Shown here one piece after another: positions 2,491 through 22,169 of a stretch of DNA of 53,478 nucleotides; position 1 is the first letter of the stretch, and every line of letters starts with the position of its first letter. Below the pieces are notes generated by a model. It saw only the letters and a list, made by a program, of their open reading frames with translations, did no database searches and had not been told where the DNA came from. The stretch lies in NCBI RefSeq assembly GCF_001645125.1, contig NZ_LXKA01000337.1, positions 1-53,478 on the forward strand, read 5' to 3'. Made by a program: the position numbers and the translations under genes. The stretch comes from Paraburkholderia ginsengiterrae. Its GTDB lineage: Bacteria > Pseudomonadota > Gammaproteobacteria > Burkholderiales > Burkholderiaceae.

Positions 2491-2748
2491 ATGAGCAAGA
2501 CCGTATTTATTCCGAGCGTCCCCGCGACGTCGGAAGACGATTTTGAAATTTCGGCCGGCTCGAAACTCGCCGGCTACCGGCGTTTCTTCGGGCTGTTGAA
2601 AGTGGTTCGCACCACCGACGGCCGCGTGCTGTTTCCGTTCGACGGCGCACCGGAACTCGGGCCGTATGCGACCAAGCTGGAAGCAATCGCGGCCGCGCAG
2701 GTGTATGGCGAACATATTGTCACCAGCGACCTCGCGCGGCCTGCATAG
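2491..2748 (+). CDS. Small DUF6723-like protein
   Basis: This 85-residue cytoplasmic protein has no signal or membrane segment. The core reads YRRFFGLLKVVRTTDGR, then LFPFDGAPELGPY, then an alanine-rich helix ending in AAAQVYGEHIV. This is the pattern I recall for the Burkholderia-restricted family DUF6723, so the family name is from memory. Its function is unknown. It is the last gene on the left before the transposition operon and may mark the left flank of the inserted region. Confidence 0.7.
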   Translation: MSKTVFIPSVPATSEDDFEISAGSKLAGYRRFFGLLKVVRTTDGRVLFPFDGAPELGPYATKLEAIAAAQVYGEHIVTSDLARPA

Positions 2749-2907
2749 CAGAATTAGATGCGTTTACAGAACCCGGGTTTCAGGCCACATCGACAAAACA
2801 CGATGTGCAATCAACACCTTACGGAAAGCGTAAACGCTTCTGGACACATGCAAGTCGCCCGAATTCGCACGAGAATGATGTCAAGCTGATTTCTCCCGGC
2901 ACCAGAG
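2749..2907. other. Intergenic boundary between chromosomal genes and the Tn7-like operon
   Basis: This 159-base gap is where the left end of the element would be expected. It contains a seven-base inverted repeat, CACATCG (2786-2792) with CGATGTG (2801-2807), and the small palindrome AGCG-TAAA-CGCT near 2828. I saw no clear TGT...ACA terminal repeat shared with the right side and no target duplication, so no end is called. Confidence 0.35.
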
Positions 2908-3441
2908 TTAGAAGCGTTTGCGCGCCGTCCCGCTTGGCTTCGGCGCTTTTCTGTACAACGTCGGGCAGTCACGGACCATCTCTCTCAACTGCGCAGCGGT
3001 ACGTGGCAATTTTCTCGAGGTCGGGAACACCGATAGCGGGCGCGTGTGAACAAGCCACTCGTCGAATTTCGCACAGAAGTCGTCCAAGCCGTCGTTCGTC
3101 GGTGCGTGCTGACGCCGCGACGGCTGCAAAGCATCAAGGATGGCCATCGCGCGATTCACCGATATATGCAGAGCGGCAACGACTGGACCAATCTGCATGT
3201 CCATTCGCTCGCTGAACGTATCCGGGTCAAGTTCATCGTCCCAAACCGTGACGGTAATCCGGTCATTCATCAAGTTATCGTCGAGGTCGTCCCAGTCTCC
3301 GTAGCCGCACAACTGGGCGAAGACGTTTCTAGCGCGAATCCTTGACAATCGTCGTGCGCCCGCAATCATCCTGAGCCGTAGTGCCATCTCGTGGGCGTAG
3401 CGTTTTGATGGGGGAAAGAAAACAGCGTCCCAACCGTTCAT
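2908..3441 (-). CDS. Unknown protein, last gene of the transposition operon
   Basis: A 177-residue protein starts at 3441 with a good AGGAG site seven bases upstream, 68 bases after the TnsB stop. It is probably co-transcribed with the transposition genes. The N-terminal 60 residues (helices around RRLSRIRARNVFAQLCGYGDWDDL, here split: RRLSRIRARN and VFAQLCGYGDWDDL) resemble the short helical module with a G-[FY]-x-DW-x-x-L ending found at the start of several uncharacterised proteins. The rest is helical and ends basic. I do not recognise a catalytic motif. It could be an accessory transposition factor or a passenger. Confidence 0.6.
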   Translation of the reverse strand: MNGWDAVFFPPSKRYAHEMALRLRMIAGARRLSRIRARNVFAQLCGYGDWDDLDDNLMNDRITVTVWDDELDPDTFSERMDMQIGPVVAALHISVNRAMAILDALQPSRRQHAPTNDGLDDFCAKFDEWLVHTRPLSVFPTSRKLPRTAAQLREMVRDCPTLYRKAPKPSGTARKRF

Positions 3442-3509: not shown

Positions 3510-5882
3510 CTAGTGGAGATGAGTCTCACCGACGCCCCGGCTACGCGCTAGCTTCTTTTCACGAATTCTTGCCGCGTATGCTTGGTCAGCCGCAGTTGAC
3601 TTCGATGTTTCCGTAGGCATGGGCGCGACAAGCTGCTTGGTGTCAATGCCAGCAGCAGCGGCCTCCTTATCGCCCCATTTGCGGTCAAACTGTGCCGTGG
3701 CCCGCGCCTTGGCGTCAGATATCGAGGTCCCCTCGAGCTCAATAACGTCGCCGTTTGCCTGCAAGACCTGCTCGCGCGCTGTAATCAGTTCATCTTGCTC
3801 AACCGTCACGCGGTCACGGCTCGCTCGCCTTCTACTATCGGCCGTAGGTTTCAGCATGGAGGTAGCTTCTAGCGTCATGTCGAGCTCTGCCCAAGACATT
3901 TGGCGGATACGCATCGCATCCGCCTCAATTAACTTCAGGAGGCCTTCCTCCCGATTGGGCATCTTCCAGATAAGGCAGTGAGGACTTCCTTCCAAACGCT
4001 TGACGGAAACGATAAGTGGACGACGCTGCTCTTTTGGAATCTTCACGTGGTTGTTCCAGAGTGTCACCAGGTCCGCTGACGTATACCGAACCTTGCGCTT
4101 GAAATAGACCAATCCTCGGCGGACCTTATATTTCTTCCAAGGCACGAACCTGGCGAGTACGTCCCTTTCCGTCCATTCCCTCCGTGCGTCACCTCGCCGC
4201 TTCAACTGCGATGCCTCAAAGTTTTGCGCCGGTGTGCCTTCCCAACCCTCTTTCATAGCGGCGTAGCCACGCAGATACGACCTGTCCGCGGTAAGGTTGT
4301 GGTGCTGCATGGCCTTGTAAATTAGCGTTTCGAGCTGCCGTATCGATACACCGCGCGCTCTTCTGGCGCGTCTGCGCTCTTCCTGTTGGACCTTGTCATG
4401 CTTCCGGTTATGGCCGCTGGCTTCCTCCTCGCAGAACTGCACCATCAGCGAGTTCAAGTTCTCTCCTACCGGTTTGTAATCTCCTCGTCCTGGTGGCGCC
4501 AGTTCGTACGAGAGCCTCATCTCCCCGCAGGCGACCTGAACGTTTTCCTTCGCTGGTCCCGCGCCATTGTCGACAAACACTCCATCGATGTTTCCGTGTA
4601 CGAGCCCATCACTCGACTCAAGCCCCAACTCCTTTGCCCGCTCAGCCTTGCTTAAAAAACATGAGGCGATGCATCTGCGATAAGCAACCGCGCTCTCACC
4701 TCTCAACACAATTTCCGCGGCTAGTACTGCATGAGTATTGCGGGACACCGCAAATATCACCTTCACTTGAGTGGTCTTCCACTTGTTCCTGACTTTCACT
4801 CTGATGAAAATTTTTGGGGTGAAGCCGTCAACGTCGACAATCTCAATTTTTCCTTGAGTGTAGTCAGTGGCCGTACCCACTCGAGCACCGTAATATTGTT
4901 CATGAATCACTGTCCGATTTCGAACTGCCACCAGGTCATGCTCTACTATCAAGCGCCTCGAGTGGTAACGGAAAGTGTCAACCGTCGGAATCTCGCGCTC
5001 GTCAACGTCCGCGTAGTGCTCAAGACAAAGCTTGGCGTAAGTCCTCCCTAGGCTGAAGCGCTTGTTGGCCCAGTAGCGTGTCAGCACATCGACGAACTTC
5101 TTCTCGTCATCGAGATTCGTTGGCGGACGCCTGTATTTGACGGGCTTCCCAGTGACTTCGCTTCGTCTTTTGGCTCGTTCCTCCTCATCAGATAGTCGGC
5201 CCGGTTTGATTTTCAACGTCCCCACCCGCGTCCTTATGCGCCCACCTTTCTCGTTGTGTTGCGCCAACATGGCGCCGTTTGCACCTCCGAAATGGCAAAA
5301 CTGATGGAAGAGCTTCCTTATGTGCGACTCCCAACCGTGCGGTTTACCGAGCGAATCCCGGACAAAGCGCTGCGCTTCGAGTCGCGCCTGAGTGTTCACG
5401 ACCACATCGTCGTTGAACATCATGTCCTCTTCCTGGCCCTTTCCCCCAACGTCCAGGGAGCAAAATGCTTGCACGATTCGCCGGCGCCGTGCGTGGCCGT
5501 TAAGCCCCTTCTTTAGTTCTTTTGGGAGTTCAGTGAGCGGCTTCGTCATGTATTCGGGCACTACGGATTCGTCCGCGCGCCTGATGTCCTTCAAGGGCGA
5601 GTCAGGCGCGTCGGCGGACCACACATACCACTCTCCCGGCCCCATCGGGGCGCCATTGGGGACGAGCTTAAGCACATGAAGCTGTCTGTCGACCGCATTC
5701 CAGCAAATTGCCCGATAACGCACATTCTCGCCATCGCGAAACCGCTTCAGCATCGCAAATCGAAACAGACCTTTGGGCCACTCTTCCTGCGGTTGCTGAA
5801 GTCGTACTATCGTCGCAGCGTCCGCCGCACGCGGCTTCAACCTAGATACCGGCGTGAGCTTTTCAGCTTTGGACTGGCTCAT
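3510..5882 (-). CDS. tnsB: TnsB-like DDE transposase
   Basis: This 790-residue protein has the Mu/Tn7 transposase plan: N-terminal DNA-binding helices (about 30-310), an rve/RNase H catalytic core (about 333-500), and a C-terminal beta-barrel and tail. The catalytic triad is visible as D340 (in TATDYTQGK), D438 (in VFVDNGAG) and E474 (in KPVGENLNSL), so the enzyme looks intact. In Tn7, TnsB binds the transposon ends and makes the 3' cuts and joins. It starts in an ATGA overlap with the TnsA stop, as expected for a coupled pair. The tail (AARIREKKLARSRG) is basic. The stop is TAG at 3510. Confidence 0.9.
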   Translation of the reverse strand: MSQSKAEKLTPVSRLKPRAADAATIVRLQQPQEEWPKGLFRFAMLKRFRDGENVRYRAICWNAVDRQLHVLKLVPNGAPMGPGEWYVWSADAPDSPLKDIRRADESVVPEYMTKPLTELPKELKKGLNGHARRRRIVQAFCSLDVGGKGQEEDMMFNDDVVVNTQARLEAQRFVRDSLGKPHGWESHIRKLFHQFCHFGGANGAMLAQHNEKGGRIRTRVGTLKIKPGRLSDEEERAKRRSEVTGKPVKYRRPPTNLDDEKKFVDVLTRYWANKRFSLGRTYAKLCLEHYADVDEREIPTVDTFRYHSRRLIVEHDLVAVRNRTVIHEQYYGARVGTATDYTQGKIEIVDVDGFTPKIFIRVKVRNKWKTTQVKVIFAVSRNTHAVLAAEIVLRGESAVAYRRCIASCFLSKAERAKELGLESSDGLVHGNIDGVFVDNGAGPAKENVQVACGEMRLSYELAPPGRGDYKPVGENLNSLMVQFCEEEASGHNRKHDKVQQEERRRARRARGVSIRQLETLIYKAMQHHNLTADRSYLRGYAAMKEGWEGTPAQNFEASQLKRRGDARREWTERDVLARFVPWKKYKVRRGLVYFKRKVRYTSADLVTLWNNHVKIPKEQRRPLIVSVKRLEGSPHCLIWKMPNREEGLLKLIEADAMRIRQMSWAELDMTLEATSMLKPTADSRRRASRDRVTVEQDELITAREQVLQANGDVIELEGTSISDAKARATAQFDRKWGDKEAAAAGIDTKQLVAPMPTETSKSTAADQAYAARIREKKLARSRGVGETHLH

Positions 5883-6865
5883 GCTCCTGACCTCGCTTTA
5901 GCGGTGGCCCTCGTACGCCAGCCGCTACGAACGAGATGCAGCCTCAAGTCCGTATCTAGCTCGTAGTTGTGGTCAAGCTGGAGGAAGCCATATGCAACCG
6001 AGGCTGCGAACCTGTGATACGCCTCGTCGAGACCAATGCACATTGTGCGCGAGACACGTTCCATGACCGCGTCCAGGCTACCTCGGCTGCTGCTACGAAT
6101 GACAATTGGCGCAAACTCTTGCGCGGCAACGTAGAGGGACGGAAGGTTTTGCTCGCGCGCGAAAATGAGGACGAGCCTCAGGTTTCCAAATTCCGTCATC
6201 GATATTGCATCACCTCGAATGAGCTCCCAGGTCCATCCTCTTTCTGCCATCGCAGCACGTTCACGCTCCTCGCGGCTGAGTTGCTCGTCTGTTGGCAGAT
6301 AGCTGCCATGCTTTATGGAGATGGCGTGATACTTCAGCTTAAAGTCTGGCGGCTGGACATACGTGACGATGACATCGATTGTCATCAGGTCCGAACGGCG
6401 CATGCGTTCACCTTTCGCCTCAGCGCGCCAATACGCTTGGCGGTTGTAGATGCCGTACTGCTCGCGAAAGTCCCAGACGGCGGGATGCAGTGCGAGCTTC
6501 ACCATCACACGAAACTCGGACATCGACAGCGCCTGGTGCAGTCGGTCCAGCTTGAAACCTGGAATAATCGCGCGCGTGCTTATCAGTGGCGTACGCGCCT
6601 TGAGCAGTGGTGTGTATGCGTCTCCGTGTGGCCATCCAAACGGGTCGTGCGCCGGCAGGACGATTTGGGACGGCGACACGAAAGGCGGCGCCAAATCAAA
6701 GATATGAAATCCTTCCTTCGCTTTGACCGGCACTTCGGGAACGACGCCATCGTCGTACTCGAAGTCAGGATGTCGCCAACGTTGAGCCGCGACGTCGAAA
6801 GGTGAGATGTAAGTATGTGAGTGGCGACCGCGCTCACCCGGGCGGCCAGTTTGACGCAAGACCAT
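5879..6865 (-). CDS. tnsA: TnsA-like endonuclease subunit
   Basis: This 328-residue protein has the restriction-like nuclease core in its middle. E117 (SMSEFRVM), D164 (TIDVIVTY) and K185 (AISIKHGS) line up with the E-D-K metal site of Tn7 TnsA. The typical segment FREQYGIY lies between the first two. In Tn7, TnsA makes the 5' cuts so that the element moves by cut-and-paste. The ATG at 6865 is preceded by AAGGAAA, which overlaps the TAA of the preceding TniQ gene, so this start is preferred over an upstream one at 7000. It has about 100 extra N-terminal residues compared with the short Tn7 protein. Confidence 0.87.
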   Translation of the reverse strand: MVLRQTGRPGERGRHSHTYISPFDVAAQRWRHPDFEYDDGVVPEVPVKAKEGFHIFDLAPPFVSPSQIVLPAHDPFGWPHGDAYTPLLKARTPLISTRAIIPGFKLDRLHQALSMSEFRVMVKLALHPAVWDFREQYGIYNRQAYWRAEAKGERMRRSDLMTIDVIVTYVQPPDFKLKYHAISIKHGSYLPTDEQLSREERERAAMAERGWTWELIRGDAISMTEFGNLRLVLIFAREQNLPSLYVAAQEFAPIVIRSSSRGSLDAVMERVSRTMCIGLDEAYHRFAASVAYGFLQLDHNYELDTDLRLHLVRSGWRTRATAKARSGA

Positions 6866-6875
6866 TTGAATTTCC

Positions 6876-8393
6876 TTAGCTGTTCGCGACGTCGGAAGTC
6901 GACTTGGTTGGCGACCGATGAAAGTGTTGTATGGACCGGGCCCTTGCTGGCCTCTCATACGACGCAATTCGTTCTCTCCACTCCGCAGCGGTCTCCGCAT
7001 TTCGCTTCAGGGCCTCAGGCACACCCACCAGCTTCTCAGCCATACCCTTTCCACTCAGCGCCTTCGGGCGGACGAATCCCCGCTGTAGTACGCGCTGGTC
7101 GATGCGCCCGGGATACCGAGTCCCACGCAAAAATTCCGCCCGCGTATCGATGTACTCGACAAGCATCTCAGCGAGCGCCCGATTTCGAACACCATTCTTA
7201 AGAACCATCGGCACGTCGTAGCCGGCTGCCGCAAGCGAGTCCTCTGTCAAGACGTCATTAGCCGTGGTCGGCAGAAGTCGCATCAGTTGGACGTGGCTCA
7301 ACTCGGGACGCTCGCGCCGAAGTTCGTCGTACTGGGAAGCGTAGCGACTGAACAAGCTCTTGAAGTTCCGGTTGATGTAGCTCTGGTGATACTTCGTCCA
7401 GTCCTTCCGCGGTGCCGTTTTGACAGGATTGCATTGCTCTTCAATGGTTACCAGATTAGGTTTGTTCATAAAGATTTTCTCCACGTGGTCCCAGCTGGCG
7501 TTCAGGGCCCTGAGCATGCTGATTGCTTCAATTGGGTGACGAAGAAACTGTCGACCCTTCAGGATGTTCCCAAACGCTTGACTACGTTCAATTGCGATTC
7601 CAGTGCGCTCGACAACCGGTCGAAGCGAATGTTGCGCGAAGTACTCCTTAGTGGTATTCCAGAAAAACCTACCGCCACGTATGAGTCCATGCCTCATTGC
7701 CGCCTCCGCAATTGCCTGAGCGACGCTGGCATGGTTGAGATGAGGGAGGTAGTCCGGCTCTAGCAGCTTCGATGCGATTCGAGCGACCTCCATTTCTGTT
7801 TCGGCCTGTCTGTCTGAGAGTGATGTGGCCTCGGCAATGGGCTTGAGGCCACAACCGCAGTGATAGCCGGCGTGCAGGACCCGCTCGGGATGCTTCTCGT
7901 AGTCCATACATAGTTCGCACGCTTCATACAGCGGGAGACCGTGAAGTCCGCAAAACAAGTTTCCCGGCAGCAGATGGTCTCGGCGCCAAAATGGGCGACC
8001 GCAGCAACCAATATCCTCTTCGAGACACCGCACGCATCGCAGCAGCCGGTGCCGGGCCCAGCCCGACCGTGGTCCTGCCATTCCCTGTTTGGCTTGTAAG
8101 CCACTGACCGGGTCATCGAGGAAATGCGCCTCGACACAGCGGAAATCTTCTGGCGGGATGAAGCGCGAGGCGAGAGGGGAAAGAGTGTTGTTGGTAAGAA
8201 CATCATCGACAGACCCGACAGTAGTCTCAAGGATTTCTATCACCGGACGCATGCGACTCGGGAGCATCCATGCGCGATTCGGAGAGAGGTTGTGCTTCGC
8301 CACTGTTCGGAGGCGTCGAAGGTACAGCGTGAGCATCTCCCCCTTTGAGATAGAAAGACCCAAGCCGGGCCGATGTAGTCGCCTTAATTTCAT
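6876..8393 (-). CDS. TniQ/TnsD-family target-selection protein (second copy)
   Basis: About 505 residues. The TniQ start appears as SISKGEMLTLYLRRL, followed by zinc-binding pairs CVRC, CGLH and CELC between about residues 137 and 190, with a CGCG further on. In the Tn7 family, TnsD/TniQ proteins recognise the attachment site and recruit TnsC. The reading frame overlaps the upstream TniQ gene by 167 bases in another frame. An internal ATG at 8336 with AAAGGGGG just before it would shorten the overlap, but it would cut the conserved GE-L-Y entry. The long C-terminal half is helical and may hold the specific DNA-binding part. Confidence 0.85.
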   Translation of the reverse strand: MKLRRLHRPGLGLSISKGEMLTLYLRRLRTVAKHNLSPNRAWMLPSRMRPVIEILETTVGSVDDVLTNNTLSPLASRFIPPEDFRCVEAHFLDDPVSGLQAKQGMAGPRSGWARHRLLRCVRCLEEDIGCCGRPFWRRDHLLPGNLFCGLHGLPLYEACELCMDYEKHPERVLHAGYHCGCGLKPIAEATSLSDRQAETEMEVARIASKLLEPDYLPHLNHASVAQAIAEAAMRHGLIRGGRFFWNTTKEYFAQHSLRPVVERTGIAIERSQAFGNILKGRQFLRHPIEAISMLRALNASWDHVEKIFMNKPNLVTIEEQCNPVKTAPRKDWTKYHQSYINRNFKSLFSRYASQYDELRRERPELSHVQLMRLLPTTANDVLTEDSLAAAGYDVPMVLKNGVRNRALAEMLVEYIDTRAEFLRGTRYPGRIDQRVLQRGFVRPKALSGKGMAEKLVGVPEALKRNAETAAEWRERIASYERPARARSIQHFHRSPTKSTSDVANS

Positions 8394-9828
8394 GTGTTGT
8401 CAGCGAGACCTTGAAGCCAAATTTTGAAACAGTTGCAATGCGCAACCTTGCAGCGCGAGACACTGTTGCGATGTCCAGCGGCTTGCCATCACGAGCGAGT
8501 TGTTCAACGGCAATGCCTACGCGTCGGCTAACGAAGAGCTCTTTCAAGCCTGGAAGTTGCGCCTGGCGACCCACCGCTGGCGGCATCGTGGGCAGTCGAT
8601 TGAAGAGATACTCATTCATGCCGTACGCGAGACGGGTTTGGTATGCCGACGGGAGTGGCTCCCGACCACCGTGATGTTCGCGGAGGTCGACGTCATCGTG
8701 GTTGATGGCGACGTTAATGAATGCCGGAATCTCGTGGAATCGCCGTCCGCCTGCCGGCGTACCGGTTGGGTGTTGGTGCTCTTGCAGCCACGGGCGGTCA
8801 TTCCGGTACAGCCAACTCCAAACGTCGGATAGAGAGTGCCGCATCTGTGTTCGTGTCATCTCCTGGTGCGAGATGCTCTGTTCGAGCCACCTTGCGCGTT
8901 TCGATGTTCGCAAGGCCGCATCGACGTCTACCGGCGTCGACCGAGAGGGATACCGCTGATGCAACGAACATGCGGCATCGATGTCGCGAGCAGCGTAATG
9001 GAGCAGGACCAGAAACGGTGCGGGCGCCGCCCGGTCGGCCCTTCGCACCGCTCTGATGCAGCAATCGAAAAAGCTCGTATCGTGCACGAAATGACAGAGA
9101 CGTTCGTCCTCAAAACCGGCGGAGAACAGCTTGCGATACGAGTCGTGCAGTTCCGCCATTCGCAGTTTCCCGTGCTCGGTGACGTAACCCTTCTCATAAA
9201 GGATGCTATGAATGCGAGGCCAGAGAGGCTCATGCGGAGCATCGTCGCTGATGGAGCAGGCGAGCTGTGCATATCGAAGTGAATTTTTAGCGCGAGCCTT
9301 GTCTCCCTCGCTTGACAGAAGCATTTCCAGCCTGCTGCATTCAAGGTCGCAAACGAGCCTGCAAGCGTGCCGCGGACATCTGGTCACGTACGGGATGCAG
9401 TGCACGCAATAGGAGACTCTGCGCCCGGCTGTCACGGTCGCCTGGAGAGCGCACTCTGGGCACTGCAGCCCGTATCGGTTGCCGGATTCGAGCCCCGGCA
9501 ACATGCGTGGAAACATAGTCCGACTCGTCGTGTGATACGCAATACAGCGCGTCGCTTTCTCCGCCATGTCTGCGGACATCCCGCACGTCGCGAAAGAAAG
9601 CAGACTGTACTTTGACAGTACATGCAGTGCATCACCATATGCCAGGCGGGTTGCTTCGCAGAGGCCGGCCGACCTGCACGGCAGGGTGCTGTAAAGGAGT
9701 AAGTCGCCTCGAAGTGCACATCGGAACATGCTTCTGACAGCCTCGTCGCCGGTAGTTCTGGCCACCATATCCGCGATGCTTGTGAGCGACTCTCCGGGTT
9801 CTGCGGGGATGTAGGTCGGCCCGTTCAC
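8227..9828 (-). CDS. TniQ/TnsD-family target-selection protein (first copy)
   Basis: This 533-residue protein starts at a GTG (9828) that overlaps the TnsC stop as GTGA, with a GGGGAGG site directly upstream. The N-terminal 200 residues show the TniQ layout: a PAEPGESLTSIADMVAR entry and zinc ligands CPEC (near residue 123), CVHC and CPRH. The C-terminal half is long and helical, as in TnsD rather than the short TniQ of CRISPR-associated elements. Two dissimilar TniQ proteins in one operon suggest two target modes, or a heteromeric target complex. The last 55 codons are shared out of frame with the next gene. Confidence 0.85.
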   Translation of the reverse strand: MNGPTYIPAEPGESLTSIADMVARTTGDEAVRSMFRCALRGDLLLYSTLPCRSAGLCEATRLAYGDALHVLSKYSLLSFATCGMSADMAEKATRCIAYHTTSRTMFPRMLPGLESGNRYGLQCPECALQATVTAGRRVSYCVHCIPYVTRCPRHACRLVCDLECSRLEMLLSSEGDKARAKNSLRYAQLACSISDDAPHEPLWPRIHSILYEKGYVTEHGKLRMAELHDSYRKLFSAGFEDERLCHFVHDTSFFDCCIRAVRRADRAAPAPFLVLLHYAARDIDAACSLHQRYPSRSTPVDVDAALRTSKRARWLEQSISHQEMTRTQMRHSLSDVWSWLYRNDRPWLQEHQHPTGTPAGGRRFHEIPAFINVAINHDDVDLREHHGGREPLPSAYQTRLAYGMNEYLFNRLPTMPPAVGRQAQLPGLKELFVSRRVGIAVEQLARDGKPLDIATVSRAARLRIATVSKFGFKVSLTTHEIKATTSARLGSFYLKGGDAHAVPSTPPNSGEAQPLSESRMDAPESHASGDRNP

Positions 9829-11144
9829 GACGCCTCCCCAATCAGCGGCAGCAAAAGAGAGCCAGAATAGCTCTCGTTGACCGCCGGAATTGCCGCGATG
9901 GACGTATCAAGTGGAAGCCAGTCAGCGTAACGCAGAGCGCCATCCCGTGCGGTCGGACGATTCGCCCGGACGTGCGCGACTGCTCGGAGTGGGGCACGCT
10001 CGAGTTTCAGCGCCTGTTCCGCGAAGGAGGACAGCAGTTCCGGGGTGAGCTCTTCGCCGGCAGTCAGCTCACGGCGTTCATAAATGTGTCGGACGAGTTT
10101 GGTGGCAACCTCGGTGTGACCACGCGAGTGCTTCCACAGCTCTTTGTGCAGCCAGTCAGGCATGACGTGGTTGAAGACGAATCGGAGATAGTTGTCCCAT
10201 AGATACTCCGTCCACAGCCCCCATTGGGCCTCCTCAAGTTCGAGCGCTGCGATACTGACGCCTCCCTTGCTGTAGAGCGGTGAGGCTGTGGCTCCAAGTT
10301 CGACGAGACGAGAGGCCGCTCCCGTGGACCCAAGGCAGACAAGCGGCACGCCTGAGAGCTTCGCAAATTGAGAAAGCTCGCCGAGGAGGACCGAGGCGCC
10401 ACTTTGCTCGAGTGCTTTCGCAGTGATGTCCGGAACGAGTATCACGCCAATGTTGTGCTGGATGCATAGGGCACACATCGCGAATGCGCACTCATCTGGG
10501 AGTCGGTGAAACGGACCGGTCGTTTCATTTGCATAGCCCGTTTGCGCCGCACTGTCGATTGCGTGCAGCAGAGTTTTCACGAAGCGCTTCGGAGAGCCAT
10601 TTGGCGGAAACCGGACCGTGAGCGACTTGACCTTGTTGACTTCGATTGGACCTCTGTGCGGAGTGTTCACGTAGAACCACTTGCTCTGCGTGCCAACATA
10701 GTCTTCGATAGCTTTCACCAGTGTGTCCTGGCCCATCTCGGCGGGCATGAACACGAAAATGCCTCGAGCTCCACCATTGCGGACGGATATAGCTTTTGTA
10801 GGGATGGCGTGCCCGTGACAGTCCTCGGTCTCAGCTAGGACTGCTGACGCGTTAAACATCAGGCGCTGGTACTCAAAATCCGCCGGATTACGCTCAAACG
10901 TGCTGAAAAACATCGCCTCAACGATTGCTCGAATCAGATGCGCTTGAACTGAAGTGGGGAAGTTGGCAACACCGTCGGACTCCATGCGGCCATTGCCAAG
11001 CCGGGTAGGCTCCACGGTTAGCCTGTCCATCGCATCGTCGAAACCATTCCAAACCGGCAGGTAGTCCAGGCAAGGGTTGTTTGGAACTGGAGATGGCTGA
11101 AGCACCTCAATTACGCCATCAGCGCCGCTCTCTGTGGTCGTCAT
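9825..11144 (-). CDS. tnsC: TnsC-like AAA+ regulator with degenerate nucleotide-binding motifs
   Basis: A 439-residue protein starts at ATG 11144 with GGGAG upstream. An Arg-rich extension to 11243 is judged non-native. The fold markers of TnsC are readable: the segment after the P-loop ending in EDYVGTQ, the FPPNGSPKRF element, the strand GVILVPDI, and the sensor-like VPLVCLGS. The Walker A position reads MPAEMGQDT (about 133-141) instead of G-x4-GK[ST], and Walker B reads VPDI where DE is expected. In Tn7, TnsC is the ATP-dependent matchmaker between target selector and transposase. Here ATP binding or hydrolysis is doubtful. It is the first gene of the operon. Confidence 0.8.
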   Translation of the reverse strand: MTTTESGADGVIEVLQPSPVPNNPCLDYLPVWNGFDDAMDRLTVEPTRLGNGRMESDGVANFPTSVQAHLIRAIVEAMFFSTFERNPADFEYQRLMFNASAVLAETEDCHGHAIPTKAISVRNGGARGIFVFMPAEMGQDTLVKAIEDYVGTQSKWFYVNTPHRGPIEVNKVKSLTVRFPPNGSPKRFVKTLLHAIDSAAQTGYANETTGPFHRLPDECAFAMCALCIQHNIGVILVPDITAKALEQSGASVLLGELSQFAKLSGVPLVCLGSTGAASRLVELGATASPLYSKGGVSIAALELEEAQWGLWTEYLWDNYLRFVFNHVMPDWLHKELWKHSRGHTEVATKLVRHIYERRELTAGEELTPELLSSFAEQALKLERAPLRAVAHVRANRPTARDGALRYADWLPLDTSIAAIPAVNESYSGSLLLPLIGEAS

Positions 11145-13046: not shown

Positions 13047-13577
13047 GTGAGCGAGGTCGATTCGGTTTGGCAAAGTCTCGCATCTAGAGTTATCCGCGTT
13101 GCGCTCGCGCGCAAGGATAAGACCTATGCCGAGCTCATCGAGGAGCTTGCCGAAAGCGGTTCGCCGGAGTCGGTACGTGCGCTGACGAACCGAATTTCAC
13201 GCGGCACAATGAGGCTGAGCCTCCTTCTCCAGGTAATCTCCGTAACGGGAGCTACTGCGCCAGCCCTCTGGCAGGCTGCCATCCACGCAAGCGGTGATTG
13301 GGACGACAGGGCGAGCGCCGTGGTCGCAGCAGAGCTCGCACGTCAGCCATGGGTGACGCCGGCCGAGTTAACTCGGCGTCTAGGACAGATGGGCACGGAC
13401 ATCTCCCAGCGCACGCTCACCGGTCACCTAACTTCCGGCTCCGTCGCACTCTCCCTATTTCTTCAATGCATAGCCGCGCTCGGTAGCAGTAGCCTCGAAC
13501 ACTACCTGGACTTCGCCGATTTGCATGCGGCCGCGAATTTCGACCGCGAACCTCTGGAAGGCAACGAGAGCGCCTGA
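13047..13577 (+). CDS. Tandem DUF6471 protein, probable DNA-binding regulator
   Basis: A 176-residue soluble protein begins at GTG 13047, with AAGGAAA eight bases upstream. It contains two copies of the same helical unit. Unit one (about 8-80) runs from LASRVIRVALARK through LTNRISRGTMRLS to ALW. Unit two (about 88-155) runs from VVAAELARQPW through LTGHLTSGSVALS to LEHYL. The units resemble the DUF6471 family as I recall it. The helix with x-x-R/H-[IL]-S-x-G-x-x-x-LS looks like a phage-repressor-type recognition helix. It sits between two copies of a palindrome, so a role as autoregulator of the adjacent operon is inferred. Confidence 0.75.
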   Translation: MSEVDSVWQSLASRVIRVALARKDKTYAELIEELAESGSPESVRALTNRISRGTMRLSLLLQVISVTGATAPALWQAAIHASGDWDDRASAVVAAELARQPWVTPAELTRRLGQMGTDISQRTLTGHLTSGSVALSLFLQCIAALGSSSLEHYLDFADLHAAANFDREPLEGNESA

Positions 13578-13696: not shown

Positions 13697-13881
13697 TTGA
13701 AGCGTCGCCAAACGAAAATCAGACATGACTCTTTCCTCCCCTTGAGCCTTACCTTAGTAGGCTCGCACCGCCTGCATGCTTTAGAAAAGCGCGACCCAGC
13801 GCCCTTAAATGGCCTGCGAGGTTTGTGGACAGTACCGGCCCAACCACCGATTCGCGCCCACGTCAGATTGCGGAGTCGAGT

Positions 13882-14208
13882 ATGCCCATATGGATGGCAG
13901 CTTCGGTGAGTGAGCAACCGGTCATCGAACTACTACAGTGGCGAATTTTCGAGATTGTTCCAGATGGCGAGCGCCACTTTGTCGGGAGGAACGCCCAGAG
14001 CTACAACGGCCGCGTCAGTTCTTCCATTCAACTCCTCGACGCTGACAGGCGACAAGGCATCACGTTGTCTGGACGGGTGTATGTGTTGATTGGACCTCCG
14101 GGGTTCGCCAGCGTCTGTCAATACGTCTGGGACCAATGGTGCGAACGCAACCAAGTCTCGAGTTACCACGACGTTACGGACGAGCTATCCGAGGAAAATT
14201 GGCAATGA
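13882..14208 (+). CDS. Unknown 108-residue protein, first gene of the cargo operon
   Basis: It starts at ATG 13882 with GGAG eight bases upstream. The protein is soluble and mixed alpha/beta: LLQWRIFEIVPDGERHFVGR, read here as LLQWRIFEIV then GERHFVGR, followed by GRVSSSIQLLD and GRVYVLIGPPG. The beta-rich pattern (an edge strand, a turn, then S-S-x-I/V-x-x-L/F-D) resembles short beta-sheet proteins of unknown function from Burkholderia mobile regions. I do not recognise a family with certainty. The stop overlaps the next start as ATGA, so translation of the two is coupled. Confidence 0.65.
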   Translation: MPIWMAASVSEQPVIELLQWRIFEIVPDGERHFVGRNAQSYNGRVSSSIQLLDADRRQGITLSGRVYVLIGPPGFASVCQYVWDQWCERNQVSSYHDVTDELSEENWQ

Positions 14209-14414
14209 CAACCTCTGACGAAAGAACGCGGGCTGTCGTCGACACTCGGCAGTTGCTTCAGACGCTAGCCGCTGGGGAGGAGATTGCCATGGCCAATCTG
14301 GTGAGCGCTGTCACCATCGGCTTGCTCCTGCACTACCCCCTCGACGTCGACCTAGCCAAATCCGCCGCCGCTTTGCCGGGAATCTGGGGTACACCTAAGA
14401 GCAAGCGGACATGA
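14205..14414 (+). CDS. BPSL0761-like small protein
   Basis: This 69-residue protein begins MTTSDERTRAVVDTRQLLQTL, a start close to what I recall of the BPSL0761 family of Burkholderia (T-x-x-ERT-x-A-V-x-x-T-R-x-x-L), and has a middle L-L-x-HYP motif. These small proteins often sit in accessory regions next to HAD-type genes, and their function is not known. Both ends overlap neighbours by four bases (ATGA), so it belongs to the coupled operon. No membrane or metal motif is visible. Confidence 0.7.
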   Translation: MTTSDERTRAVVDTRQLLQTLAAGEEIAMANLVSAVTIGLLLHYPLDVDLAKSAAALPGIWGTPKSKRT

Positions 14415-15022
14415 ATCAGGACTCGCCGCGAGAAACGGGCAACGCCCTTGGCGACGGGACGCGCACTCCGAATTCCCTGACGGCTGCCTCGGCCGTGCTC
14501 TACACGGACCTCGACCACACCTTGCATCGCAGCGACGCGTACCGAACGAAGCACGGAATCATACCAGGGTCGCCTGACACCCCATTCTTCGAGTTCGCCA
14601 ACGTGCTTGAGCAACTTCTCGCTCCGTTCAAAGAAGTCGTTATCGTGCTGAGCACATCGTGGGTGCAGGAGCTGGGATTCGAGGAGACACGGTCCCGCTT
14701 CCCGACTGCCTCGCTACGGGCCCGAATCGTTGACTCAACCTATCACCCGGGAGACGAGCTCGCGCCTGTATGGGGCTACATCACAAGGGGCGCCCAAGTC
14801 CTTCGGCACGTGAGGCATCACAGGCTCACCCGCTGGCTTGCAGTCGACGACGACCGGCAAGGCTTTGACGGCTACGAGTCTCACCTGATTCACTGCCAAC
14901 GAAGCGTCGGCCTCGGGGACAAAGACGTGCAGGAACTGTTTGCTCGCCGTCTCGAGCTAATGTTCGGCACTCCGGATTCGCTCTCTTCCGACGTCTCTCC
15001 GAAACCGGAGTGCCCGAGGTGA
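14411..15022 (+). CDS. HAD-like phosphatase (RNA-repair 'Swiss Army Knife' class), catalytic motifs present
   Basis: This 203-residue protein carries all the HAD signatures: motif I DLD (D33 and D35, in LYTDLDHTL), motif II ST (S81/T82, in VIVLSTSW), and motif IV DDD (146-148, in WLAVDDDRQ). The spacing fits the HAD domain of RNA-repair Swiss Army Knife proteins (PF18143), which are proposed to remove phosphates from nucleic-acid ends. It therefore looks active. A second HAD-like gene one position downstream has lost motif I. The substrate is unknown. The protein is cytoplasmic. Confidence 0.78.
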   Translation: MNQDSPRETGNALGDGTRTPNSLTAASAVLYTDLDHTLHRSDAYRTKHGIIPGSPDTPFFEFANVLEQLLAPFKEVVIVLSTSWVQELGFEETRSRFPTASLRARIVDSTYHPGDELAPVWGYITRGAQVLRHVRHHRLTRWLAVDDDRQGFDGYESHLIHCQRSVGLGDKDVQELFARRLELMFGTPDSLSSDVSPKPECPR

Positions 15023-15378
15023 AGGCCAAACGACCGAGAGTGCGGAACGCATTCAGTCACGGGACAACTCGCGTTCTTTCCTATGCGCTTAGCGGGGTCG
15101 CGAAAGAGTTGGCGCGTCTGCTGAGACTACATCAGACGCGGCGCCGGCGTGCGCTCACCCGGCGCGGTGAGCACGGAATGTCGAAACAGCTGGTCTTTCG
15201 CCTTCTGTGCCGCGCGTTTCACAACGCGATGCTTAGCCCCCGTAGTGACAAGGTGTGCGCGGCAAAACAACGGAGCGCGCTGCTATATGTGCTGGCCGCT
15301 GCTGACGTGCCATCGACGCTACATGTGCCGGGCGTACCAACGGAACTGCGCCGCGCGCGCAAACGGAGGAGGCGATGA
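15019..15378 (+). CDS. Arg-rich unknown protein between the two HAD genes
   Basis: A 119-residue reading frame starts at GTG 15019 (GTGA overlap with the upstream stop) and ends in an ATGA overlap with the next gene. This placing between two coupled genes is the main argument that it is real. It is highly basic (RRRRALTRR near the middle and ARKRRRR at the end) with a central helix (LVFRLLCRAFHNAML). The charge suggests nucleic-acid binding. No family is recognised. It might instead be a fortuitous frame that only couples translation. Confidence 0.5.
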   Translation: MKAKRPRVRNAFSHGTTRVLSYALSGVAKELARLLRLHQTRRRRALTRRGEHGMSKQLVFRLLCRAFHNAMLSPRSDKVCAAKQRSALLYVLAAADVPSTLHVPGVPTELRRARKRRRR

Positions 15379-15902
15379 CGACAATTGAGCATCTCAATGA
15401 GTTGGCCTCCGATGCCCCAACGCTCTATCTCAGCTACGGGGGTGTATTGAACATCGGACACGGACTGATGGACGACAGCGGCGTTGTGACTTTGGACTCA
15501 GGCCGGATGCTGTTCGAGTTCGCGCCCTATCTTGTGGAGGTCCTCGCACCTTGGCCTCAAGTTCAGATAATCGTCACCACCTCTTGGCTGCAAAGCTTAG
15601 GCGCAGGTAAGACCATCGCGCTGCTACCAGACCAGTTGCGTCACAGACTGGTCGCGACGACGCTCCACACGCCGCCTCGTCTAAGCGAAATCAGCAATGG
15701 CTCTGCCAAAGCCATGACCGTCATTCGCCATGCCGTGAAGCATGGCCTGACAACTTGGCTAGCGCTTGATGACGAGGCTTGGGGCGTGCCATCGGACTTT
15801 GAGCAGCATTTTTTGCACACAGACCCGGAAACGGCACTCGGCGCACCAGAAGCACGCAAACAACTTCGGGAATGGCTTGCTGTCAATGGCAGCATGCAGT
15901 GA
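15375..15902 (+). CDS. HAD-like paralogue lacking the nucleophilic aspartates
   Basis: This 175-residue protein aligns with the HAD protein two genes upstream over its whole length (motif II TTSW at 68-71, motif IV LDDE at 131-134, the same R-H-x-x-K/R-HGLTTWLA block). Motif I reads LYLSYGGVL instead of LYTDLDHTL, so S20 and G22 replace the two essential aspartates. A HAD phosphatase without them cannot form the phospho-aspartate. It is therefore probably a pseudoenzyme, perhaps a regulatory or partner subunit of the active copy. The frame is intact, which argues against simple decay. Confidence 0.75.
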   Translation: MTTIEHLNELASDAPTLYLSYGGVLNIGHGLMDDSGVVTLDSGRMLFEFAPYLVEVLAPWPQVQIIVTTSWLQSLGAGKTIALLPDQLRHRLVATTLHTPPRLSEISNGSAKAMTVIRHAVKHGLTTWLALDDEAWGVPSDFEQHFLHTDPETALGAPEARKQLREWLAVNGSMQ

Positions 15903-15964
15903 TGCCGGAGAGACGTACGAGTCTCCTTGCTGGCCGGAAGCCGACGCACGATGGATGCGAAATC

Positions 15965-16330
15965 ATGAACAAAAGTGAGAGTTGGCGTATGGCTGCAAGT
16001 CGCGAATATCTGCGTGATGCAAAGCATGGCGAACTGTCACCGGCGACGCGCCTCAAATGCGCCTGGGAAAGCCTTTATTATTGTTGCTGCGAAGTCGCCG
16101 AGAGACGAGGTGGGAGCATTGATGGCCTTGACCATCCTGATGCAGATGTCGTCGAGCATCTGCTGGTGGCCCTCTCTGCGTCCGCGGACGAGCGACTTCA
16201 GGTCGACGCGTTTTTTCGCTGGACTTCGAACATGGAGACATGGACGCTTGCCCCATGTTCTCCCGCGGAGGCGTACGACCTCGCCGAAGCTCTTCATCTA
16301 CGAACCGCCGCATTTCTATCGGCAGCGTAA
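15965..16330 (+). CDS. Unknown 121-residue helical protein
   Basis: It starts at ATG 15965, 62 bases after the HAD-like paralogue, with only a weak ribosome site. It is all-helical: an N-terminal REYLRDAKHG helix, then CAWESLYYCCCEVAERRG, DADVVEHLLVALSAS and a tail PAEAYDLAEALHLRT. The cluster of three cysteines (YYCCCE) has no metal-site spacing. The shape recalls HEPN-like or four-helix proteins (a Y/H-rich helix followed by an acidic one), but no R-x4-6-H motif is present. No function is assigned. Confidence 0.6.
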   Translation: MNKSESWRMAASREYLRDAKHGELSPATRLKCAWESLYYCCCEVAERRGGSIDGLDHPDADVVEHLLVALSASADERLQVDAFFRWTSNMETWTLAPCSPAEAYDLAEALHLRTAAFLSAA

Positions 16331-16387
16331 TGTTTCAAGGTCCTCTCCAGATTGCGTCGGACTTCCCTTCAAGAAACAGAGGCAGCC

Positions 16388-16675
16388 ATGAAAGTGCGAG
16401 ATTTGCTGCGAAACCTGGAGGCGGCCGACGTGGATGCCGTCGTTCTATATCTCGCGCCATACGCCGATGAAAGCGAGGCCGATGAGATTGTTCAGGTCAG
16501 GGTCTCGAACGAACTCTGGACCTGCGAGCGCCACCGCTCCAAGGATGGTCGGATTGACAAGATTTATCACCCCGTGGTCGGCGGACTATCGCTTGCCTGG
16601 AACGAAACGACGGACCAGCATCGGCCCGAGCGCGCGGTCATCTTGTCTTCAACCCTAGGAGCTCAGTATGGCTAG
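16388..16675 (+). CDS. Unknown 95-residue protein
   Basis: It starts MKVRDLLRNLEAADVDAVV, continues LYLAPYADESEADEIVQV and ends in a short polar tail that overlaps the next start by eight bases. The opening resembles the M-x-V-x-[DE]-L-[LI]-x-x-L segment of small acidic proteins in Burkholderia accessory operons. An acidic middle (ADESEADE) could pair with one of the basic partners of this operon. No enzyme motif was seen. Confidence 0.6.
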   Translation: MKVRDLLRNLEAADVDAVVLYLAPYADESEADEIVQVRVSNELWTCERHRSKDGRIDKIYHPVVGGLSLAWNETTDQHRPERAVILSSTLGAQYG

Positions 16676-17669
16676 CGGCGGCTGGGATATCGCGATGCGC
16701 CGCATCGACCAGCAGTACGACCTCCCTCAATTTTTAGCCTCATCGCTTGTGCGCAAAATCGCAGCCAATGGCTTCCGGTTGCCGCCGACGGACCGCGTCA
16801 CGTTCCAAAAACTACCGGATGAGGTGATTGAGCGCATAGAGCAAATTGTCCGCGACGCCTACATCGAAGCCGGCGGAGATGTTGGCGGCGAAGTATTGAG
16901 CGAGCATCTCCGGCAGCAGTCATTAACTGCGCGGCGTGAAATGATTGCAAATGGAGAACTGCTGGCACCGAGTGACTTTAGGAAGCGCATCGGCGTGACT
17001 GAAAAGCGACTCGCGCTCCTTCTCGAAGATGGCAGCGTGTTCACCGTCGAGGTCGACGAAGCCTCATACATTCCTGCTCTGCTTGCAGCCCCGGCACATA
17101 ATCGAAGGCGCCTGCATGCAATTTGCCGAATCATCGTTCCTGCTCCGCCATTGAGCCGACTTGATTTCCTCTCGTCGCAGCGAGGTAGTTTGGGTGGGCG
17201 CCGTCCCCTCGATATGCTCGACAGCGACGTTGATTTCAAAGCGGTCAAAAGGATAGCTGCGGCGTGGGCAGCAGAGTGGTCGCGCACCGTCGTTAAGTTG
17301 TATGCGGGTGACCACCAACTCGAACCGAGCGATGTTGAACCGCTGTACACAGCGACAACGGAAATTGACCCTAGGAAACCGCTGTGGACACGAGCATCCG
17401 AAGCGCTTCACTTGCACGGACACGAATGGCCGCTAGACCCACATCGAGTGATTCCGATATTTACCCTATTCGTTTCGCGACAAGCGGTTGGGGATTCCAC
17501 GCCAACACCGGAAGCTTGCGTGCAAGTTCTTGTCGTCGGTGAGCGCATTCGAATCCGAATAGTCGCTGCCGCGGGCACTGTGCTCGGCTCGCAAATAATA
17601 ACGGCCGGCAAGTACAAGACGTTTGTTGACATAGCGAAGCAAGTCGTCGCTTATCTGCTCAAGCACTGA
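16668..17669 (+). CDS. Unknown 333-residue protein with a possible DNA-binding module
   Basis: An AGGAG site lies seven bases upstream of ATG 16668. The N-terminal part is helical (to about residue 95). The middle (about 97-150) starts FRKRIGVTEKRLALLLEDGSVF and continues to PALLAAP, which reads like a helix-turn-helix followed by a strand. Next come AICRIIVPAP and the striking SLGGRRPLDML motif, reminiscent of MbcA/Xre-type antitoxin C-termini. The last third is beta-rich. It is the largest gene of the cargo operon. A regulatory or nucleic-acid-binding role is inferred only. Confidence 0.6.
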   Translation: MASGGWDIAMRRIDQQYDLPQFLASSLVRKIAANGFRLPPTDRVTFQKLPDEVIERIEQIVRDAYIEAGGDVGGEVLSEHLRQQSLTARREMIANGELLAPSDFRKRIGVTEKRLALLLEDGSVFTVEVDEASYIPALLAAPAHNRRRLHAICRIIVPAPPLSRLDFLSSQRGSLGGRRPLDMLDSDVDFKAVKRIAAAWAAEWSRTVVKLYAGDHQLEPSDVEPLYTATTEIDPRKPLWTRASEALHLHGHEWPLDPHRVIPIFTLFVSRQAVGDSTPTPEACVQVLVVGERIRIRIVAAAGTVLGSQIITAGKYKTFVDIAKQVVAYLLKH

Positions 17670-17692
17670 CCATCGGCTGTGAGCCTGAGAAA

Positions 17693-18274
17693 ATGATAGA
17701 CCCCAACCCACCGATAGCAATCAGAGTAACCGTAAATGACAAGGACTTCACCGTCTCGTTGAGGGACGGACGCATATTTCGGATTCCATTGCGATGGTTT
17801 CCCCGATTGCTAGCAGCGACGCCCGACCAGCGAAACGATGTTCGGGTCTCCGCGTCCGGCGCAGAGCTGCATTGGGACCAACTTCACGAGGACATCCGCG
17901 TCAGCGGACTAATGCGTGACTACGAACCGCTTCTTCTTGACGAGACGTTGAGTTCACAGGTTCCCAACGACTTTCCTTGGGACACGACACCCGCATCACT
18001 CGCCGGCGCACAGCCCAAGCTCGCCGGGCGGAAAATTGCAGGACGTTTTGTGGTCGGTCTCACGGCGCCAGAACGCTATCAGCGATGGGATGTATGCGAG
18101 GACCTCGCGCAGCAGTTGATGCCAAAGGCACTCAAAGACGCGGCGAAGTTTCCCCAAAATTCGCGTGATGTGACGCTGCGGCGCATCAGACGGGCCATTG
18201 AAGGCAAAGGGTGGACGAGTGTTGTGGAGACGGATTGGCTGATAGAACGGCTTCGCGTCCTGCTTGAGCGGTAG
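17693..18274 (+). CDS. DUF2442 domain fused to a C-terminal domain with a HipA-like motif
   Basis: 193 residues. The N-terminal half (about 7-80) matches DUF2442: VTVNDKDFTVSLRDGR, IPLRWFPRLLAATP and a following GAELHWDQLHEDIRV strand. This domain is often found next to, or as, antitoxin-like proteins. After residue 98 the sequence reads PASLAGAQPKLAGRKI, a pattern like the GAQPK loop of HipA N-termini. A helical tail (CEDLAQQLMPKAL to LIERLRVLL) follows. It is the last gene of the coupled operon, 23 bases after the previous stop. Confidence 0.7.
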   Translation: MIDPNPPIAIRVTVNDKDFTVSLRDGRIFRIPLRWFPRLLAATPDQRNDVRVSASGAELHWDQLHEDIRVSGLMRDYEPLLLDETLSSQVPNDFPWDTTPASLAGAQPKLAGRKIAGRFVVGLTAPERYQRWDVCEDLAQQLMPKALKDAAKFPQNSRDVTLRRIRRAIEGKGWTSVVETDWLIERLRVLLER

Positions 18275-18420
18275 CATGCGACTGCACGAAGGCCCACATG
18301 TGCGTCGACCTGCTGCAAGTGTGGCGCGAAAACTAGTTGCTGCCGGCGGTGCCTACCCTGCGCAGCGACAACCGGCTGCGCACGTCGCTTTTGTCCGTGC
18401 GGCGAGAAAATCACGCAGAA

Positions 18421-18648
18421 GTGACTATCGTGACCATTGAAGAAGCAGCGAAATTTCTCTTCGTCAGCCGGGCGCACATTCGCCATCTTCTTGAGCGTGG
18501 AGAATTGGTCGGGGTCAAACGAGAGTATTCGGGCGGTCACGTCGATGTCGATACGACTTCGATTCAAGCGTATCGGGAAAAGCGCAGGGCAGCTCAGCGA
18601 GCCTATATGGATTCGCAGACCGAAGACAACGACCCGCCTGGGCTTTAG
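18421..18648 (+). CDS. Excisionase-fold (MerR-like HTH) DNA-binding protein, possible antitoxin
   Basis: 75 residues from GTG 18421. TIEEAAKFLFVSRAHIRHLL is a helix-turn-helix of the excisionase/AlpA type. A wing (ELVGVKREYSGGHVDVD) and a basic helix (IQAYREKRRAAQRAYMD) follow, then the tail TEDNDPPGL. Such proteins are common as antitoxins for PIN-type toxins or as recombination directionality factors. No toxin gene follows: the downstream DNA holds only fragments, so this may be an orphan. The upstream start at 18337 would add an unrelated arginine-rich stretch. Confidence 0.7.
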   Translation: MTIVTIEEAAKFLFVSRAHIRHLLERGELVGVKREYSGGHVDVDTTSIQAYREKRRAAQRAYMDSQTEDNDPPGL

Positions 18649-18696
18649 TACCCTCCATGAGCCCGCGATGGCCGTTCTGATAGAACCGCAACCATA

Positions 18697-18870
18697 GCTG
18701 ACTACCCGCGTTTCAGCGCAAGCGTGTGGGACCTCGTAGCTCAAGGGGGGCGCCACGGCGTTGAGGACATCAGCGCGACGGGGTTGTTGCGCAATGCGGA
18801 GTATCACGTCGTTCCTGAACGGCTGAAATCAGTAGAACGTGCCGTCAAATTCGACCTCGATGACCTGTAG
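18697..18870 (+). pseudogene. Start-less fragment, probable gene remnant
   Basis: An open stretch of 57 codons reads ADYPRFSASVWDLVAQGG and ends in KSVERAVKFDLDDL before a TAG. It looks like real protein sequence but has no ATG, GTG or TTG upstream before an in-frame stop. The same frame continues after the TAG with protein-like residues into the next gene. It is therefore read as a remnant. No family is recognised. Confidence 0.4.
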
Positions 18871-19086
18871 CTACCCAACTTCAGCCTCCGTGTCCGTATC
18901 AATCGACGAGAAGCCAGGTGTCCCATTTCCGGGCGTCTCCGAGAGCAAGTTCGATGTTTTGTCACGGAAGCGCTGCTTGACCCGCTGGGGCGAACGAAGG
19001 CAGTATCAGAGACGCGGTGCCATACCGGCGAACTGGCAGTGGACATGTGCCTGCCGGAACCCAACTCCATCGGTGAGGAGACGTCC

Positions 19087-19419
19087 ATGATAGAGGTGAC
19101 GAATACGTACGACCTGCAGCCAGGCGTGAATCTGGAGTCTTACGCCGAATGGGCTAGGAAGGCGGCGGAAGCTATTGTGCTGCAGCCAGGTCTGGTCGAA
19201 CTTCGCGCAAATCGGAATATGCTCGGCGCCCCGCAGATTCGAACGACCACCTGCTGGAGGTCTACAATCGACTGGGCGACGTTCGCAGACGGGCCATGGC
19301 GCGCGCTGGAGCAGGAATTACGGACCTTCGCGACGAATCTGAAGGTTGAGATGTGGGGACCGTCGCAGCTCCTGCCAATACCACTTCGTCCGGACCCAAC
19401 CGGCGGTGCCGGTGCATGA
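19087..19419 (+). CDS. Small protein resembling antibiotic-biosynthesis monooxygenase-like fold
   Basis: This 110-residue protein starts at ATG 19087 with GGTGAGGAG just upstream. The sequence has one ferredoxin-like half (VTNTYDLQPGVNLESYAEWA, then a helix and LVELRANRNMLG) and a second (ATFADGPWRALEQELRTFA ending VEMWGPSQLL). That layout is typical of small dimeric ABM-like proteins, although the family assignment rests on pattern only. The neighbourhood is decayed on both sides. Function is unknown. Confidence 0.5.
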   Translation: MIEVTNTYDLQPGVNLESYAEWARKAAEAIVLQPGLVELRANRNMLGAPQIRTTTCWRSTIDWATFADGPWRALEQELRTFATNLKVEMWGPSQLLPIPLRPDPTGGAGA

Positions 19420-19824
19420 GCAAACCCACGCGCGTCGTCAGCATCGAAACCGGTCGCGACAGTCCTTCCGAACGAGCTATTTTTCTGGTCGTCAGGCTCA
19501 CCTGACCCAGATGCTCGCGTGCTGTGGTCGCGAATTGCAGTCGGGCAGACACCGACTGTTTTCGTCAGAGGCGCGGTAACCATCATGCGCCACGGGACTG
19601 TGCGACGTGCGAATTGCACACTGCTTATGGTTCTCATCGCTCCTCAGTCGCCGCCATGGCAGAGAAGATGGCGTCGAACTCAGAACCAAAACATTGGACG
19701 TACTTCAGTCCGCGCCAGCGCCGCGACGATATAGCCTGATGCGTTCCTGTTTGACGACGAGCTGCGAGATTGTGCTATCTGACAATCGCATTGCACCAGA
19801 TGCCAGAATCGCGCGCAGAATCGA
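19420..19824. other. Gap with no supported gene
   Basis: Short rightward frames exist (for example 19519-19734), but none has a good start or family features. No hairpin or repeat stands out. The base composition is ordinary, and the stretch is probably decayed coding DNA between the cargo operon and the M20-like remnant. Confidence 0.4.
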
Positions 19825-20907: not shown

Positions 20908-21037
20908 TTGATTCGTTATCTGATGGCATTGCTTGTGGCCGGCAGCATTCTCCAGCCGCCAGCACACGCAATCAAGTTGTTCGTCATGACGCAGTCGCTG
21001 CTCACGAGTCGCGACTGCGCCATGAAGCTTATGGGGA

Positions 21038-21650: not shown

Positions 21651-21694
21651 CGCATTACGTGGCTTCCCTGCTGGTCATCTGTGTCGGGCTCGAG

Positions 21695-22072: not shown

Positions 22073-22169
22073 GCAGGGAAGTCCTCATACTGCTTAACGA
22101 TTGGGCGCGACCGCAATCGTCTCGACATGTCGGCTTTTCGTCGACGACGAACGTCCGGTCAGGCCCTAC

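Follow-up and report, generated by a model that had tools for sequence, protein, structure and literature searches.

A Tn7-like transposon family of Burkholderiales whose TnsC lacks both Walker motifs and probably acts without nucleotide

Introduction

Can a Tn7-like transposon find its target with a TnsC that has lost its ATP site? The question is raised by contig NZ_LXKA01000337.1 of Paraburkholderia ginsengiterrae (assembly GCF_001645125.1), which was analysed as a whole (53,478 nucleotides, hereafter the window). It carries a Tn7-like operon on the minus strand in the order tnsC-tniQ1-tniQ2-tnsA-tnsB (C-Q1-Q2-A-B). Tn7 of E. coli encodes TnsABCD and uses the attTn7 pathway. According to excerpts of PMC11406308, TnsC links TniQ to the transposase and its ATP cycle is held to govern target choice, yet Walker mutants differ between systems: a mutated Glu in Walker B causes hyperactivity in Tn7 and compromises other systems. 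Here we describe a TnsC without either Walker motif. With a probability of roughly 0.7 we read it as a nucleotide-independent AAA+ scaffold in a Tn7-like transposon that belongs to a mobile family and sits at attTn7.

Results and Discussion

Loss of both Walker motifs in the window TnsC

The initial annotation had described a Tn7-like TnsC with MPAEMGQDT at residues 133–141, where the P-loop is expected, and VPDI at the Walker B position. These letters were verified by translation. In two independent alignments, one made with MAFFT from 46 TnsC open reading frames (ORFs) and one with hhalign from the profile of the clade described below (clade 1) against the canonical TnsC profile, MPAEMGQDT aligns without gaps on the P-loop GPTGIGKTT. 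The hhalign comparison reached Prob 99.9 and E 7.1e-32. At the Walker B position the first Asp is replaced by Pro and the second position is still Asp. Around the P-loop position the AlphaFold2 (AF2) model predicts a strand (128–132), a loop and a helix (139–150). Homology to TnsC by descent is supported by sequence profile, fold and gap-free alignment.

A canonical GKT elsewhere in the protein was looked for and not found. The pattern [AG]xxxxGK[ST] occurs in none of TnsC, TniQ1, TniQ2, TnsA and TnsB of the window element, nor was a P-loop present in any core protein of the four elements checked (window, P. ginsengisoli L095, BCC0506 L096 and P. fungorum L097). The pattern does turn up by chance in one mandelate-racemase-like ORF of the cargo, at 39810. 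The AAA and TniB models of Pfam did not match the window TnsC, and none of the six clade 1 members scanned matched them (E<=0.1); all eight canonical relatives scanned matched both AAA_22 and TniB. TnsC has been surveyed through the AAA model PF13401 (PMC10702557, in excerpt). Since none of the six members matches the AAA or TniB model, surveys of this kind would miss these elements. By sequence comparison the protein is thus confirmed as a real TnsC with both Walker motifs lost, as initially annotated.

Conservation and history of the loss

TnsC relatives were collected from overlapping genome sets (16 of 197 relatives matching TnsC, 8 of 399, 12 of 399 with the profile of the sister group, and 24 of 138) together with four named loci that came from a scan of genome contigs with the TnsA alignment. 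A genome-contig scan with TnsC alone and a scan of viral contigs yielded no relative. After removal of L111 (unrelated) and L138 (truncated), 44 of the 46 aligned ORFs entered the tree, which was built with the Walker columns removed. Duplicate, fragmentary or further loci (e.g. L074, L110, L128, L140, L141, L172-L177) and a protein found separately in Paraburkholderia sp. 22B1P stand outside the tree.

Clade 1 comprises nine proteins of Burkholderiales: those of the window, G045 (inferred to be Paraburkholderia ginsengisoli NBRC 100965), G022, G044, G058 (BCC1885), G031, G103 (P. fungorum ES3-20), G401 and Burkholderia sp. BCC0506. The other eight are 23–41% identical to the window TnsC, and both Walker motifs are missing in all nine. 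GK[ST] at Walker A is found in 0/9 clade 1 rows versus 31/31 canonical rows (29 with the strict GxxxxGK[ST]). The Walker B pair reads PD, PN, EQ, GP or EK in clade 1; all 31 canonical rows have an acidic pair (ED in one). A tenth Walker-less TnsC is that of 22B1P, on the plasmid record NZ_AP028998.1, with APVSMGCRR and LLVIERIN. Close homologues were therefore found to be without GK[ST], the opposite of what would have spoken against the annotated loss. The letters GQDT themselves, whose conservation had been suggested as a check, vary (GEEA, SQQA, GQHA, GRRS, GCRR); the constant trait is that the Lys-Ser/Thr pair is missing.

The Walker A Lys is missing in 12 of the 44 tree rows. As all of these fall within one well-supported branch (support 100/96), the loss is no chance event. 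This branch joins clade 1 (99/95) with a sister group (99/95). Among the sister proteins L073 keeps GSSGSGKS with DG at Walker B, L071 and L072 have GRT with DG, and L018 has neither motif; provisionally, the group appears to document a graded decay of the motifs. One change on the tree is enough to explain the disruption of the Walker B pair. For Walker A, descent of all rows that lack it from one loss was weakly rejected (p = 0.029 in the approximately unbiased test), a result that the long branches keep from being firm. Walker B may have been the first motif to break: L073 of the sister group still has GKS but DG at Walker B.

The ratio of nonsynonymous to synonymous substitution rates (dN/dS) of tnsC was 0.19, 0.23, 0.22 and 0.16 in four pairs, compared with 0.13–0.28 for the other tns genes, and shows purifying selection on tnsC in clade 1.

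The degenerate loop could also be a rebuilt pocket in which TnsC still binds nucleotide in an unconventional way. Its length is kept, as is the last Gly in most members, one member has Arg for Lys (GRRS) and the strand-loop-helix is predicted to be retained. The Lys and Ser/Thr positions, on the other hand, hold Q/E/R/C and D/E/Q/H/R, and neither column is invariant, Pro134 being the only invariant column of the loop. We consider such binding improbable.

Insertion at attTn7 and mobility

Homology of the window to its relatives ends at 2741, directly before the tnsB-side end of the element (Table 1). The glmS-side end was located elsewhere in the assembly, on contig C1 (C1:495522), 25 bp after the stop codon of glmS. 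The two ends match in 23 of 28 bases, compared with 18 for the second-best position in the window, and both are flanked by GGCCG as a 5-bp duplication. In several relatives (e.g. G022, G050) glmS and the DUF6723 gene lie within ~1 kb of each other. From the inverted repeat and the duplication we infer that both ends belong to one element between DUF6723 and glmS. A scan for TnsB-like sites (<=4 mismatches) found 4 in the window, where shuffled sequence gave 3.25 on average; the consensus was partly derived from these same sites. Because this number is not above that of the shuffles, only the clustering of the sites and the match between both ends count as evidence.

Position 53156, which adjoins a rhomboid-like gene fragment and has GGCC on both sides, was rejected as the second end, the fitting one being on C1. 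The fragment (53157-53351) lies inside the island, where a chance GGCC pair mimics a target duplication. A rhomboid-like gene adjoins DUF6723 in G048 and G057, the G048 copy being a weak TIGR03902 match below the cut-off.

Both ends were also seen in the elements of G031 and G044 (TGGCAGGTTCTAACA and relatives). Here the distance from the stop codon of glmS (identified by TIGR01135, 8.8e-245) to the far end is 24 bp, and the duplications are GTAT and TATG. The Walker-less element of G045 has an inverted repeat of 27/28 and forms an array with a second element; on our reading of the printed flanks, TTGAA flanks the whole array. By eye, different Tn7-like elements seem stacked in attTn7 arrays in G045 (C43, 42080 to ~131062) and at L167 (G058), with the newer ones nearer glmS. 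The location at glmS is common to the window element and three related elements.

The elements of G031 and G058 are 96.7–99.3% identical and the adjoining chromosome 76–81%, a pattern that points to recent transfer between species. Each insertion has its own host's sequence while the loss is shared, so that moves after the Walker loss are the simplest account. To judge from their ends, flanks and distribution, the elements are mobile despite a Walker-less TnsC.

The initial annotation had also offered an immobile element. A decaying relic with neutral changes would fit with a window element not seen whole within one contig, a shortened tnsA in G058 and a 22B1P locus without visible TniQ2. It is at odds with a tnsC dN/dS of 0.16–0.23, tnsC ORFs intact at 23–41% identity, and target duplications together with recent movement between species. 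We rejected the relic as very improbable: immobility is contradicted by both ends and the 5-bp duplication at attTn7, the conserved loss, purifying selection and interspecies transfer.

A probable nucleotide-independent TnsC

The initial annotation had proposed target selection without ATP or an ATPase-dead TnsC as a fixed adaptor. We regard these as one reading in two wordings, which is favoured and has the support of the sequence, short of proof. TniQ1 would bind the glmS end and recruit TnsC by the usual TniQ-TnsC contact. TnsC would then be a nucleotide-free adaptor between TnsD/TniQ and TnsAB, and the site would be passed on without an ATP-gated on/off cycle. Control would lie with the TniQ proteins, TniQ1 and TniQ2 deciding where TnsC assembles. 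The wider scenario, in which glmS-directed transposition proceeds without a TnsC ATP cycle, the switch was dismantled stepwise (first Walker B, later and on more than one occasion Walker A) and target discrimination moved to the TniQ/TnsD pair, has in our estimate about an even chance of being correct.

Several observations weigh against a nucleotide-independent TnsC in a mobile element. In the protein itself, Asp is retained at the second Walker B position, and the AF2 model is of moderate quality (mean predicted local distance difference test score, pLDDT, 63; predicted template modelling score, pTM, 0.66). The ends of the window element lie on different contigs, the duplications of G031 and G044 have 4 bp instead of 5, and for G022, G058, G103, G401, BCC0506 and 22B1P target duplications were not established. 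At the 22B1P locus no TniQ2 was seen, and in G058 an IS21 is located between tniQ2 and tnsA, with tnsA shortened. The order of the Walker losses is weakened by the long branches. Finally, six of the eight clade 1 genomes tested, that of the window included, encode a further protein of the TnsC/TniB family, which has a GK[ST] P-loop.

Because of this other P-loop protein, help in trans is possible in those six genomes: the Walker-less TnsC could be an adaptor or regulator that depends on a second ATPase of the cell, be it a canonical TnsC/TniB or another. The Walker-less element of G045 adjoins one whose TnsC is canonical. G022 has no match to PF05621 (TniB), yet the canonical TnsC profile matches at C1:3682805, so this genome is not one of those without such a protein. 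No such protein was found in G103 and G401, whose genomes have a completeness score of 100%; their weak TniB matches are Clp-type proteins. Moreover, no operon of the examined elements encodes a TnsC besides the Walker-less one, and the core proteins of the four checked elements are without a P-loop. Dependence on an ATPase in trans is in our view unlikely, though less so than a rebuilt nucleotide pocket.

Comparison with known systems

The favoured nucleotide-independent TnsC sits in an element that resembles Tn7 in its TnsC fold, the main catalytic residues of TnsA and TnsB, a TnsD-like selector, insertion ~25 bp after glmS and, in the window and G045 elements, a 5-bp duplication. Unlike Tn7, it has a TnsC without Walker A and B, the order C-Q1-Q2-A-B and two TniQ-type genes. 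Its ends start with TG rather than with the TGT of Tn7, and the tnsB-side end is the one away from glmS (window, G031, G044, G045).

Type V-K CRISPR-associated transposons (CASTs) are without TnsA. In some of them the native TnsC has no typical Walker A or no Glu at Walker B (PMC11406308, in excerpt). A natural Walker-less TnsC is thus common to both; the elements described here differ in being TnsA-bearing and glmS-homing and in having lost both motifs clade-wide. Tandem TniQ/TnsD genes are shared with the dual tniQ-tnsD Tn7-like transposons, of which 1,048 loci have been described; the excerpted text of that study does not mention a Walker-less TnsC (PMC10293859). In the open-access literature searched, in part available as excerpts, a Walker-less TnsC was found only for type V-K CASTs, which is weak evidence of absence elsewhere. 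What the present elements appear to add is the clade-wide Walker-less TnsC in a TnsA-bearing, glmS-homing lineage, Walker-less TnsC itself being already in print.

A further comparison is offered by G078, which has the same C-Q1-Q2-A-B order, a divergent DUF6471 gene and two similar cargo genes, but a TnsC that keeps GPTGIGKTT and LLIIDDIQ. With precise glmS targeting after loss of the ATP site and a canonical relative, the lineage makes the role of ATP directly testable, and it could provide targeted DNA insertion with a less complex TnsC.

Gene content of the element

The order C-Q1-Q2-A-B is shared by all nine clade 1 loci, all four sister loci and the G078 locus. In the canonical element of G045, its second, the same five genes are present, but tnsA and tnsB lie on the opposite strand. 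TniQ1 is likely the glmS-recognising selector, judging by the location at attTn7. All catalytic residues of TnsA and TnsB had initially been annotated as kept. This stands for TnsB D352, D438 and E474 and for TnsA E162, D209 and K230 (the latter aligned with 1f1z), which are invariant among eight aligned sequences, but not for Ser228 of TnsA, which aligns with the catalytic Gln130 of Tn7 TnsA. TnsB had no Pfam match at E<=1.

Table 1. Features of the window and of two related elements with both ends seen
Feature	Position	Strand	Remarks
DUF6723 gene, chromosomal neighbour	2491..2748	+	last codons supplied by the element
Target-site duplication copy CGGCC (GGCCG on glmS strand)	2737..2741	+	identical 5 bases at glmS-side end
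tnsB-side end	2742..2769	+	starts TG; inverted repeat with glmS-side end; first TnsB-like site at 2753
Second TnsB-like site	2828..2844	-	site scan
Third TnsB-like site	2907..2923	+	layout like G045 42091, 42166, 42235
Accessory gene after tnsB	2908..3441	-	177 aa; also matched in G022 (C1) and BCC0506 elements, ~31% identity
tnsB	3510..5882	-	790 aa; 7pik (Tn7 TnsB) 3.8e-37
tnsA	5879..7000	-	373 aa as called; Pfam TnsA N 2.8e-7; 1f1z (Tn7 TnsA) 2e-14
tniQ2	6876..8393	-	505 aa as called, start may be downstream; Pfam TniQ 8.2e-10
tniQ1, TnsD-like	8227..9828	-	533 aa; Pfam TnsD 2e-9
tnsC-like gene without Walker A or B	9825..11144	-	439 aa from ATG; 472 aa if upstream TTG is the start
Walker B position, VILVPDIT, residues 234–241	10422..10445	-	translation and alignment
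P-loop position, MPAEMGQDT, residues 133–141	10722..10748	-	translation and two alignments
Divergent gene, two DUF6471 domains	13047..13577	+	Pfam
Second small gene of the element family	13825..14208	+	matched in 11/15 of the loci searched for DUF6471, window included
Cargo side of island	14411..53478		continues beyond contig end
Element of G031	412519-472629		4-bp duplication
Element of G044	486080-522207		4-bp duplication

A relative of the DUF6471 gene was located upstream of tnsC in all 15 Walker-less, sister and G078 loci searched, and was found neither near the second (canonical) G045 element nor in the G114 stretch. Pfam was used to verify two DUF6471 domains in two of these loci, the window and 22B1P. 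As the canonical G078 carries the gene too, the protein was rejected as a specific replacement of the ATPase. The name DUF6471 was not found in the open-access literature searched. A DUF6471 gene of the family is also present at L099:5128-5646. Beside tnsB, a 540-aa gene was noticed in G031 (412700-414319), G058, G103 and G044, 83–100% identical to the G031 copy. The start of the contig (1-134) forms an inverted repeat, each arm ~60 bp long, which probably arose in assembly.

Among the cargo ORFs scanned most are metabolic genes. No Cas family was found among the window ORFs scanned by Pfam, which were part of all ORFs, and no search aimed at Cas or CRISPR was made. For two cargo genes at 16668-18271, the canonical G078 element has counterparts of 81% and 97% identity, so that cargo seems to have been exchanged between Walker-less and canonical elements. 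Candidate defence genes are located at 48.9–51.9 kb; within this region, a gene with a GMT-like winged helix-turn-helix domain and a neighbouring PADLOC match to PDC-M30B/M41B (49804-51919) form a candidate defence system.
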